A stretch of DNA of 46,503 nt from Pseudomonadota bacterium (GTDB taxonomy: Bacteria; Pseudomonadota; Gammaproteobacteria; Steroidobacterales; Steroidobacteraceae): assembly GCA_025357635.1 (NCBI GenBank), contig JANXOV010000026.1, forward strand, positions 1-46,503. The letters are read 5' to 3'. Under the pieces are notes generated by a model, which saw nothing but the letters and a program-made list of their open reading frames with translations, had not been told where the DNA came from and made no database searches. Positions 43,720 to 46,503 of the stretch are shown piece by piece (within the stretch, counting starts at the first letter, position 1; each line of letters starts with the position of its first letter). The position numbers and the translations under genes were made by a program.

Positions 43720-43840
43720 TGCATCCATTCCGCGATTTTGAATCGCCGATGGTAAGCATTCGAGGTCGCCCATTGCAATCAATGCCGACGCGGAGTTGAT
43801 TTGCTAGGAACGACCGGCACTGGCACACTGCCCGCCCAGC

Positions 43841-43879
43841 GCGCCCGTAGCTCAGCTGGATAGAGCATCTGGCTTCGAA
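43841..43879 (+). pseudogene. 5' half of a tRNA-Arg, cut in the anticodon loop
   Basis: The sequence starts as a normal tRNA: 7-base acceptor strand GCGCCCG, D arm GCTC...GAGC, and 5' anticodon stem plus loop ending CTTCGAA. It then stops matching: the required 3' anticodon strand CCAG(A) is absent, and so are the T arm and acceptor end. The first 27 bases equal those of the intact tRNA at 45457-45533. The break marks the insertion point of the element to its right. Confidence 0.85.
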
Positions 43880-43902
43880 TCTCCGATATGCGATGTTGCA
43901 TT

Positions 43903-43980
43903 CCGTTGCAAACTGTCGCAAACCCCTTAATTTATGGCCTTTTGGCAATTCTCGCTATAGATTGCGACAGAACGCAACGG
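43903..43980. repeat. Imperfect long inverted repeat upstream of the integrase
   Basis: CCGTTGCAAACTGTCGCAA (43903-43921) is mirrored at 43962-43980 as CCGTTGCGTTCTGTCGCAA read on the minus strand, 16 of 19 bases equal, with a 40-base AT-rich centre. The short block GTTGCA also recurs just before the left arm. The place, between the attachment point and the integrase start, suits recombinase arm sites or an autoregulatory operator. Confidence 0.6.
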
Positions 43981-44016
43981 GGGCTTTTATTTGTAATTTA
44001 TTTGTAGAGCGGCGTT

Positions 44017-45441
44017 ATGGCCAGATGGACGCAGGATCGCGACGTTCCAAAACTGAAGTATGAACCAGCGCTGGATCCGAAGGGACGCGGCTGGCATTAC
44101 CTGTGGGAAGGCGGTGGGTTTGGTATGCAGGTCTTTCAGACGGGAAGGCGCAAATGGATTCAATGCGGCTCACGCAAAAATGCGAGGACCGCCCGCTGGA
44201 CGTCGTATTTCCGTGCCCTGGGTGATGTGGAACGGATCAAGCTGGCTGACGCCCGCGCACAAGGCGAACGTATCCGAGTTGAGTCGCGCGAGCTCCGTGA
44301 TGATCAGGCGTTGGCTGCCGAGCAGCTGGCGAAGCAGGAAATCGCCGCCCTGGCCAATACCTCACTGCGCGACGCATTGACTTATTACCTCGACAATCGC
44401 AATTGCGCGCCAGTCAGCAAGTCTCAATTGTCGTCCACCCTGACCCGTCATCTCTCGGACTGGATGAAGACTCCTGTACTGGCCATCGATGCGCCGATGC
44501 TCCAGGAGCGATATCACCGCGTTCTGGCTAAGTGCAAAGCTCGCTCCGCGGTCTATGCTGCGCGGACCCGTAAGTTCGGCCCAGAGCAGCGTTTACTTCT
44601 AGCGCCAGAAGGGTATTTCAGCGGCATCAAGGTCTCCCACGACGTCGTGGAGGGATTTGGTAGGGTTTATCGCTATTGGGTCATCAAACACCAGGCTCGC
44701 CTGCAACGAGGTGGCGTGCTGGTGCCCGCCTGCCCGACCGCGGCCCTCGTGGACGACCTCATTCCCCAACCGCAGCGGGTCAAAGGTCTCCCCGCCTCCA
44801 TGCTTCGCGAGCTCGCCGGCAGTTTCCCGACGTACCCGGACAACGAATTGCACCCGCTGCTGTTGAGGTTTCTGCTGGCCACCGGCATTCGCGTGGGAAT
44901 CGCGGTGAACTGCAAGATCGAGTTCATCCAGAAGGACCGCATCGTGATCCCAGCCAGCACCGAGAGGAGCAAGGTGAGGTGGCGCAAGCGGCACTTGGAG
45001 CACATGGCCTTCGTCATACCAATTACTCCTGAGATCGAGGCCATTTTCGATGAGATTGAACGTGTCGCCCCGTATTACGGCGATGCGGAGACGTGGCTCT
45101 TTCCCTCCATGACATCCAAGTCAGGGCATATGGAGGAAGAACGGGCCGTTACCCTTCGGCTTCGCAAGCATTCCGGCGTGCGGTTCAACCTTCACCAGCT
45201 CCGTCACAACGTTGCCAGCGCGGCTGAGGAGCTGGGGTTCCCCAAGTCGGATATCGCAGAACTACTCGGGCACACCCAATCGACGGTGACGGACCGGTAC
45301 ATCGATGAGCGCGTGAGACGGCATCGCACGATGCTGACCGCCATCAACCAGCATTTGGGCGGGTTGGTCGCGGATGGGCTTCTGGTTGAAGCTCCCTCGG
45401 TTGCCAACGATCCCAGGGCTGATCGTCAGGCGGCCGCGTAG
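44017..45441 (+). CDS. Tyrosine-type site-specific recombinase (integrase)
   Basis: 474 aa. The catalytic residues are present: Arg in LATGIRVGIAV (near residue 293), HQLRH (H-x-x-R, near 393-397), LLGH, and the nucleophile in STVTDRYIDE (near 428). The N-terminal half, with about 110 residues of arm-binding or DUF-like sequence followed by a core-binding helix bundle, is not closely like P4 integrase. It lies directly beside the tRNA break on one side and a tRNA-Arg on the other (15 bases past its stop), as expected for an enzyme that inserts the element into a tRNA gene. Confidence 0.92.
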   Translation: MARWTQDRDVPKLKYEPALDPKGRGWHYLWEGGGFGMQVFQTGRRKWIQCGSRKNARTARWTSYFRALGDVERIKLADARAQGERIRVESRELRDDQALAAEQLAKQEIAALANTSLRDALTYYLDNRNCAPVSKSQLSSTLTRHLSDWMKTPVLAIDAPMLQERYHRVLAKCKARSAVYAARTRKFGPEQRLLLAPEGYFSGIKVSHDVVEGFGRVYRYWVIKHQARLQRGGVLVPACPTAALVDDLIPQPQRVKGLPASMLRELAGSFPTYPDNELHPLLLRFLLATGIRVGIAVNCKIEFIQKDRIVIPASTERSKVRWRKRHLEHMAFVIPITPEIEAIFDEIERVAPYYGDAETWLFPSMTSKSGHMEEERAVTLRLRKHSGVRFNLHQLRHNVASAAEELGFPKSDIAELLGHTQSTVTDRYIDERVRRHRTMLTAINQHLGGLVADGLLVEAPSVANDPRADRQAAA

Positions 45442-45456
45442 CATGATTTTGAAAAT

Positions 45457-45533
45457 TGGTGCGCCCGGAGAGATTCGAACTCCCGACCACTGCGTTCGAA
45501 GCGCAGTGCTCTATCCAGCTGAGCTACGGGCGC
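45457..45533 (-). tRNA. tRNA-Arg, anticodon TCG
   Basis: All arms fold: acceptor GCGCCCG/CGGGCGC, D stem GCTC/GAGC, anticodon stem CTGCG/CGCAG with loop CTTCGAA (anticodon TCG), variable loop of five, T stem GGGAG/CTCTC with one G-T pair and loop TTCGAAT. Discriminator A and CCA are encoded. It reads towards the end of the integrase gene and is in the opposite direction to the broken tRNA at 43841. It decodes CGA (and possibly CGG) codons if expressed. Confidence 0.95.
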
Positions 45534-45746
45534 TCGGCAACGCAGTTTGCCAGTGCGGGGTGTCGGGGGCAAATGCGTTGAGTGGCATCGTCGCTATTTT
45601 TCCCGTTTCCCGTCCTGAGGGAGACACATCCAAGGTCAGGAGGTGATTGTGGCATCGCACTTCTACGTCGGTTCAGTGTCCATTTCCGCGCCCAATTCGG
45701 GTTCATCGTGATGACATCGGCTGTCGTTTCCGAGGTATTGCAGGAT

Positions 45747-45781: not shown

Positions 45782-46366
45782 ATGAACAAGGGCGTGCACG
45801 TGATGAGTTGGATCACACCGGAGGTGAAGCGCCGCTTCACCGATTTGGCGCGCGCGCAAGGAATGTCAGAGTCGGCGTACTTGCGTCAGGTGATCCATTC
45901 GCTGGTTCGAGCGAATGATGGCCTGTCCGAGGACGCGCTGATTCCTGCTGCCACGTTGCCGAAAGACCTGCGCATCGCCATTCGTTTGCGGCCTGACGAT
46001 CACCGGCTGTTGCGTGATCGAGCTTGCGCTCGATCCATGCACACAAGTGCTTACGTGGCGGCGCTCGTTCGATCCCACCTGCACCACCTGACACCCATCC
46101 CCAACGCCGAACTGGATGCATTAAAAGCGGCCACCGCGGAACTTTCGGCCATCGGTCGCAACCTTAACCAGATTGCCCATGCGGTGAATCGAGGCAGCAT
46201 GTCGAGTGGCCCGAGCATCGGCGACCTTCGCGGTTTGCTCCAGGCGCTCACCGTGCATCGTGACCGCATCAAGGGCCTGATCCTGCGGAACGCCGAAAGT
46301 TGGGAGGTGGGCTATGAGCAAACGGATAAGACTGTCGGACGAGCGGCCGATCCTGGACATCGCTAG
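45782..46366 (+). CDS. MobC-like relaxosome protein
   Basis: 194 aa. The N-terminus (WITPEVKRRFTDLARAQGMSESAYLRQVI) and a second similar unit (IRLRPDDHRLLRDRACARSMHTSAYVAALV) look like two ribbon-helix-helix DNA-binding segments. They are followed by the MobC signature ELSAIGRNLNQIAHAVNRG near residue 122-140 and LRGLLQALTVHRDRIKGLI. Such proteins open the origin of transfer and help the relaxase nick it. The C-terminal end overlaps the relaxase start by about 50 bases. The frame ends near the IS boundary, so its last residues may have been altered by that insertion. Confidence 0.82.
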   Translation: MNKGVHVMSWITPEVKRRFTDLARAQGMSESAYLRQVIHSLVRANDGLSEDALIPAATLPKDLRIAIRLRPDDHRLLRDRACARSMHTSAYVAALVRSHLHHLTPIPNAELDALKAATAELSAIGRNLNQIAHAVNRGSMSSGPSIGDLRGLLQALTVHRDRIKGLILRNAESWEVGYEQTDKTVGRAADPGHR

Positions 46367-46385
46367 TGTAGTGTCGCTTAAATAG
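46314..46385 (+). pseudogene. Relaxase N-terminus, broken by an insertion sequence
   Basis: ATG with GGGAGGTGGG upstream opens a frame of 23 codons, MSKRIRLSDERPILDIAS followed by VVSLK and a stop. Relaxases encoded after MobC often begin with a charged stretch and 'PILDIASYG' or similar; here the reading changes just after IAS, where the IS end begins. The rest of the gene should follow the IS outside the window. Confidence 0.5.
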
Positions 46386-46503
46386 CTATGCATTCAAGCG
46401 ACCTTCTTCCCGCGAGGCAAAGTCGAGCCGGGTTTGATCTGCTCGAGCTTCGCTCGGGCGCGGGCAATCTTTTGGACGATGCCCTGGACCGTGGCCGTCC
46501 AGA
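46366..46503. mobile_element. Insertion sequence end, possibly IS630-like
   Basis: Starts after a TA dinucleotide (46364-46365, with another TA at 46369). Near the end, GTCGCTT (46373-46379) is mirrored by AAGCGAC (46396-46402). It carries the 3' end of a transposase gene on the minus strand. TA targeting and the protein tail fit IS630-like elements; the family is not certain. It continues past the window. Confidence 0.5.
46394..46503 (-). CDS. Transposase C-terminus (partial)
   Basis: Thirty-five codons are visible, beginning WTATVQGIVQKIARARAKLEQ and ending PRGKKVA before TGA at 46396-46394. The frame is open to the window edge. The WTAT...I..KI.RAR pattern recalls IS630-family transposase tails, whose DDE catalytic residues would be outside the window. 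Supported mainly by the open frame and its place next to an IS-like end. Confidence 0.5.
   Translation of the reverse strand, partial: WTATVQGIVQKIARARAKLEQIKPGSTLPRGKKVA

Follow-up and report, generated by a model that had tools for sequence, protein, structure and literature searches.

The window, a stretch of 46,503 nucleotides, makes up an entire contig (C173) in an assembly of 182 contigs with a completeness rating of 100%. Features at its right end are listed in Table 1. In order, these are a metallopeptidase gene (M1 peptidase), the 5' half of a tRNA-Arg gene, a 137 bp spacer, an integrase gene, a gap of 15 bp, an intact tRNA-Arg(TCG) gene in inverted orientation, a gene encoding a MobC/NikA-like protein, and a possible relaxase start. 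The metallopeptidase gene is transcribed away from the broken tRNA. The contig breaks within a repeated sequence. Contigs C180 and C181 finish with this end as well, which is what an insertion sequence would produce. Hence, only 2.6 kb of what we take to be an integrated element can be seen, and the remainder would lie beyond the contig end. Note that GC content is 59-60% in this part and 60-70% in the rest of the window. The segment is therefore not clearly set apart by base composition, which is not diagnostic here.

Table 1. Features at the right end of the window
Feature	Position	Strand	Basis
Region upstream of the broken tRNA; by eye, a host-type tRNA promoter (TTGCTA-17-CACACT)	43791..43840	+	Likeness to the intact tRNA's upstream region
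Broken tRNA-Arg, 5' half, 39 nt, ending with the anticodon loop CTTCGAA; taken as the integrase-proximal att junction	43841..43879	+	Sequence reading, inverted-repeat comparison
Putative element end between junction and integrase gene, 137 bp	43880..44016	+	Presumed role
Tyrosine recombinase (integrase), 474 aa	44017..45441	+	PF00589 2.8e-12; PHROG integrase 2e-22
Intact tRNA-Arg(TCG), CCA encoded, between integrase gene and mobC	45457..45533	-	ARAGORN, Rfam
Region upstream of the carried tRNA; by eye, TTGCCC-17-CAAACT	45542..45574	-	Likeness to the upstream region of the broken gene
MobC/NikA-like relaxosome accessory protein	45782..46366	+	Pfam NikA-like 1.7e-12, MobC 2e-5
Possible relaxase start, about 18 codons, cut by insertion sequence	46314..46367	+	Position only; piece too short for a profile match
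End of repeated element, probably an insertion sequence; contig breaks there	46362..46503		C180 and C181 close with the same end, 99% identity

A preliminary description of this DNA had proposed that a tRNA-Arg gene is cut at the anticodon loop, that it is not rebuilt, and that an intact copy with the same anticodon lies inverted beyond the integrase gene. Our analysis bears out all three points. Identity of the broken half to arginine tRNAs extends to the final base of the 7-base anticodon loop, CTTCGAA. Neither ARAGORN nor Rfam calls a tRNA at this position. Past the break, 2 of the next 5 bases can pair with the 5' side of the anticodon stem, compared with 5 of 5 in the intact gene. The target would overlap a host tRNA gene, whose 5' half lies at one junction, next to the integrase gene. 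No 3' half is present there, so the usual restoration of the tRNA is not seen at this junction; the far junction lies off the contig. As also described previously, the two tRNA copies are identical over their first 27 bases and differ in the anticodon stem. Briefly, they form an inverted repeat with 90% identity over 39 nt, with all of the first 27 bases matching, 1 of the 5 anticodon stem bases, and all 7 loop bases. Chance does not explain a likeness with this pattern. The putative element end between the break and the integrase gene contains a 19-nt inverted repeat (43903-43921 and 43962-43980), which could provide integrase or regulatory sites.

Other parts of the preliminary description fared less well. 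The sequence TTCGAATCTC had been equated with the T-loop region of the intact tRNA. While the identity exists, 6 of the 10 bases are the anticodon loop itself, and only TCTC is extra. Such a match beyond the loop is expected about once in 256 by chance, and it was noticed post hoc. Since the TTCGAA of TTCGAATCTC belongs to the anticodon loop, the remaining TCTC (or TCTCCG) is weak evidence for a crossover between the anticodon loop and the T-loop. We rejected this crossover: agreement beyond the loop is four ungapped bases, or TCTCCG with a two-base slip; what follows the break does not continue as a tRNA and holds no tRNA 3' end; and, in distant relatives of the integrase described below, 8 of 9 tRNA 3' pieces begin at the anticodon arm or close to it. 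The missing 3' half had been expected at the element's far end. The whole assembly was searched twice, allowing up to 3 mismatches, and no half that fits the broken copy was found. As the element continues past the contig end, this absence neither supports nor refutes the model. Similarly, we found no empty site. In 58 other relatives, the closest counterparts of the neighbouring M1 peptidase reach 39% identity at most.

The intact tRNA-Arg(TCG) is the single tRNA that ARAGORN finds in the whole window. It scores 70.7 bits with Rfam, where the cut-off is 29, and its fold (z of -2.55) is better than that of 197 of 200 shuffled sequences, the other 3 being as good. Its 3' end is 15 bp from the integrase stop codon. 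If the segment is a single element, the tRNA is encoded by that element, is of the disrupted isotype, and has the same anticodon loop. We assigned anticodons to 45 tRNAs in the assembly: 44 in 34 stretches of sequence plus the carried one. The arginine anticodons among them are ACG, CCG, TCT, CCT, and one TCG, which is the carried copy. Thus, the view that the element may supply a replacement tRNA is upheld insofar as the apparent element contains a tRNA with that anticodon, the only TCG copy found. Note that tRNA-Asn, tRNA-Ile(GAT), and tRNA-Ala(TGC) are absent from the 45. The assembly therefore misses tRNA genes, so a second TCG copy is possible. In standard decoding, tRNA-Arg(ACG) and tRNA-Arg(CCG) together could read the CGN codons. 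As the host has both, the carried tRNA may be dispensable; loss of the TCG isoacceptor is perhaps tolerated, and the carried copy would be simply helpful.

In relatives, tRNA-Arg(TCG) genes were sought with a pattern that leaves the anticodon stem free and permits two mismatches elsewhere. Among the matches listed, 5' halves are similar and stems differ (TCAGG, CCTGG, CTGCG, and others), with CTGCG in at least 3 relatives (L046-L048), which have another T-arm. Since stems vary among the relatives' host genes, the changed stem of the carried tRNA needs no special cause and is, by itself, no sign of design. Records similar to the carried tRNA, at 60-90% identity, number 331 for phages and 123 for plasmids, some of the 'plasmid' records being chromosome-sized. 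Its core occurs in one other genome contig, within a gene of a Hyphomicrobiales MAG that has a different acceptor stem; there was no match to the integrase on that contig. A shorter core is present in two viral contigs with tRNA arrays. The donor was not identified by these core searches of genome and viral contigs. On the viral contig stretches L108 and L109, 43 and 31 tRNAs are predicted, among them a tRNA-Arg(TCG) whose anticodon stem is the same.

The regions upstream of the two tRNA genes are alike. Over 33 nt (43799-43831 and 45542-45574) they are 73% complementary. The local alignment score of the upstream 80-mers, 15, was reached by 1 of 2000 shuffled sequences and by 4 of 5000 random 80-mers from the window. 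A scan with consensus promoters found no sigma-70 site upstream of either tRNA. Common descent of the two regions was considered and dropped on the basis of a control: the carried tRNA's upstream region ranks first, at 15.0, among 39 regions upstream of similar tRNA-Arg genes, and that of a relative's own tRNA-Arg scores 14.5. With a relative scoring so close, our claim is limited to this: as judged from sequence likeness, the carried tRNA-Arg(TCG) has an apparently host-like upstream region.

The reading frame of the integrase is intact, and R292, H393, R396, H419, and Y428 are in place as the catalytic set. Together with the PF00589 and PHROG matches, this identifies a tyrosine-family enzyme. 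The match to an N-terminal arm-binding domain is weak. The peptide patterns used revealed no close relative in 84,980 genome species or in viral contigs. Similarly, in 217 genomes of the family nothing but the protein itself matched at an E-value of 1e-20, and 369 genomes of the class gave no further match at 1e-10. A tblastn comparison with plasmids and phages returned 11 records, all below 60% identity and none covering 80% of the protein. Of 396 genomes from the order, 42 gave a match at an E-value of 0.001; these include the genome of the window, and the rest are distant. Hence, recurrence of the integrase and tRNA as a pair is not established.

Distant relatives do indicate how such integrases use tRNA genes. 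We took 29 loci (L069-L097), of which 26 have integrases that passed protein comparison (L082, L085, and L090 were excluded), and scanned them with the 45 tRNAs found in the window's own assembly, retaining the best three matches per locus. On that basis, a tRNA piece lies upstream of the integrase gene in 12 of the 26, with its middle 112-287 bp from the integrase start, and 14 have no such piece. A weak motif match at L077 is left out of this count. Of the 12 pieces, again among the best three matches per locus, 9 are 3' pieces oriented opposite to the integrase; 8 of these start at tRNA position 24-36, at or near the anticodon arm, and the other (L080) at position 45. One of the 8, at L096, adjoins an intact tRNA-Arg at 371 bp. 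Two more, by the same measure, are intact tRNAs in the orientation of the integrase (L089 and L095). The last (L074) is a broken 5' half in the orientation of the integrase, like the half in the window, the middle of which is 157 bp from the integrase gene. Within 500 bp downstream of the integrase, the best three matches per locus include one 16-nt match (L091), and a motif scan gave none. Some flanks are short: L092 has no upstream sequence, and L081 and L076 lack most of the downstream sequence. As these relatives are distant, the pattern shows a habit of the broad integrase class. With tRNA pieces upstream in 12 of 26, the junction in the window lies where such integrases place it. The break in the window differs from this class in that the restoring half is absent.

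The broken 5' half at L074 belongs to a tRNA-Thr(TGT) gene in genome G760, of the same order (L074:357-395, also L105:6694-6732); the integrase relative starts about 180 bp downstream. The half retains the anticodon arm, with two wobble pairs, and has neither the T-arm nor the 3' strand of the acceptor stem. It lies downstream of the biotin ligase and pantothenate kinase genes, which we take to be the usual place of tRNA-Thr(TGT) in Gammaproteobacteria. There is no intact tRNA within 12 kb around this integrase, and no tRNA-Thr(TGT) in the portion of G760 examined (about 0.93 of about 2.4 Mb). This is a possible second unrestored tRNA, at what looks like its native chromosomal place.

The remaining genes point to the kind of element involved. 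The MobC-like protein matches 74 plasmid records, at below 60% identity, and 72 of these matches cover 80% or more of the protein. The reading frame stops at the insertion sequence border, so the last codons may be altered. On two plasmids, the relaxase gene that follows mobC overlaps it by 8 and 4 nt; here, the overlap with the possible relaxase start would be 53 nt. The scan for phage families covered the integrase and the MobC-like protein. Thus, an integrase and a MobC-like gene are present, a relaxase is represented by a possible start, and the rest would be off the contig. With its MobC/NikA-like gene and possible relaxase start, the element looks more like a mobilisable island than like a phage. 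Since this identity draws on a single MobC-like gene plus 18 codons that may begin a relaxase, we make the claim with moderate confidence.

Our preferred reading, to which we give a probability of roughly 65%, is that an element inserted at the anticodon loop does not rebuild the tRNA and compensates by means of its carried tRNA-Arg(TCG). A mobilisable integrative element would use its tyrosine recombinase to integrate at the anticodon loop of the host tRNA-Arg(TCG) gene. Attachment site and target would have the loop of about 7 nt alone in common and, with so short a core, the tRNA would not be rebuilt at the junction beside the integrase gene. The break would be the element's attL, and the right half of the host gene would lie past the contig end. 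The complete tRNA-Arg(TCG), just downstream of the integrase gene, would be expressed and would supply the lost isoacceptor in trans. Such a reading is supported by the break at the last base of the loop, with the integrase gene 137 bp on, by a junction placed as in the integrase relatives, by an intact tRNA between the integrase gene and mobC that is the sole TCG copy found, and by an anatomy matching that of phages with tRNA-dependent lysogeny. It is weakened by the unseen far junction and lack of an empty site, by the missing tRNA genes, by the presence of the ACG and CCG isoacceptors, and by the lack of a close integrase relative. The 14 of 26 integrase relatives with no tRNA piece, the absence of an intact tRNA around the L074 integrase, and the indistinct GC content also count against it.

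Logically, the same features could have arisen in other ways. The broken tRNA may be a relic of an earlier integration, since lost, with the segment from integrase to mobC arriving later or by rearrangement, and no compensation involved. That the far tRNA half is missing from the assembly would fit, as would the possible relaxase start interrupted by the repeated element, which indicates that the element is at least partly decayed. Set against this decay are a half still identical to intact arginine tRNAs at 27 of 27 bases, an integrase with intact frame and catalytic residues, and a distance from integrase to junction like that in relatives; we consider a relic unlikely. The carried tRNA might instead serve the codon usage or defence of the element, or be a captured former attL, so that the match in isotype is incidental. 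Mobile elements often carry tRNAs, as the phage and plasmid matches above illustrate, and a captured attL might show just such a 15 bp gap between integrase stop and tRNA 3' end. Conversely, the isoacceptor that is cut is the one that is carried, in the only copy found, and we regard an incidental match as quite improbable.

An ordinary island that restores its target, with the intact tRNA as its attachment site, is a further alternative. The broken half would then result from a later inversion between TTCGAA sites, which are palindromic, or from misassembly at the shared 27 nt. The two copies are inverted and have TTCGAA in common, and repeats of this sort invite inversion and misassembly. 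A repeat of 27 nt is, however, short for assemblers. In addition, a tRNA piece lies upstream of the integrase gene in 12 of the 26 relatives, whereas the best three matches per locus and the motif scan together gave the single 16-nt match within 500 bp downstream. Furthermore, what lies 5' of the intact tRNA is a MobC-like gene and not recognisable chromosome. We consider this alternative very improbable indeed.

A tRNA carried to replace a disrupted one has precedents. Dependence of lysogeny on a phage-encoded tRNA has been shown experimentally in mycobacteriophages (Guerrero-Bustamante & Hatfull 2024, PMC10865867). There, the tRNA is not rebuilt from cores of 8-17 bp and the phage carries the same isotype, plasmids require the carried tRNA for integration, and phage Gaia has a tRNA-Leu downstream of its integrase gene. 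The authors also raise the prevalence of such systems outside actinobacteriophages and cite a Lactobacillus prophage. Like the actinobacteriophages Fionnbharth, LeBron, and Gaia, as described there (PMC10865867), the locus in the window has a tyrosine integrase, a putative target overlapping the anticodon, a presumably short core, a tRNA not rebuilt at the visible junction, and a carried tRNA of the same isotype, which is downstream of the integrase gene, as in Gaia. Unlike those phages, in the same account, it has a MobC-like neighbour, no recognised phage gene, a tRNA of type Arg(TCG), and an integrase with distant relatives only; the need for the tRNA is perhaps partial. In Sinorhizobium meliloti, according to another report (PMC11476347), a prophage that inactivated tRNA-Leu(UAG) came with a diverged copy of it, and some genomic islands carry tRNAs. 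The present case is similar in that a tRNA appears to have been inactivated and a diverged copy brought. The S. meliloti elements are phage-related, and the portions available (PMC11476347) mention no mobilisation genes, whereas a MobC-like gene is present here. According to a later paper by the same group, no such case was found in another prophage group (PMC12429752).

Canonical islands that target tRNA genes, as set out for Islander (PMC4383910), likewise combine a tyrosine integrase with an anticodon-centred target. Such islands rebuild the tRNA from a fragment in attP; the junction here does not. Methods for finding islands, in the same account (PMC4383910), assume that an island rebuilds its tRNA target, a rule that elements of the kind proposed would break, and so they would be missed. 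Such elements would also put a foreign copy in place of a core translation gene. The principle of a carried replacement tRNA is thus already known, mainly from temperate phages; what may be new here is its use by a mobilisable, plasmid-like island. A search of the open PMC literature with a few phrases found no published island of this type that uses a carried replacement tRNA. If the system works on mobilisable islands, it would link gene transfer to tRNA replacement and provide an addiction-like lock. We offer a wider proposal tentatively: tRNA-dependent integration might also serve mobilisable islands; an island that destroys the host's copy of an isoacceptor and carries the sole replacement might be hard to lose; the changed stem (4 of 5 bases on the 5' strand) might spare the replacement from the element's own integrase; and the tRNA-Thr of G760 might be another case.

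Three further stretches in the window's own genome are worth recording. A second MobC-like and relaxase gene pair (L156, C129:98108-101508) lies about 2.4 kb from a tRNA-Met gene. We considered this pair as a model of an integrase beside a tRNA and dropped it, because the open reading frame adjoining the tRNA lacks a Pfam match; next to the pair, we identified no integrase. Separately, a 31-nt match at C71:165-195 may be the other end of the repeated element that closes the window. Finally, a C-terminal fragment of a relaxase is encoded near a contig end (L157, C167:12259-12456) and might belong to the same element as the integrase and the carried tRNA.
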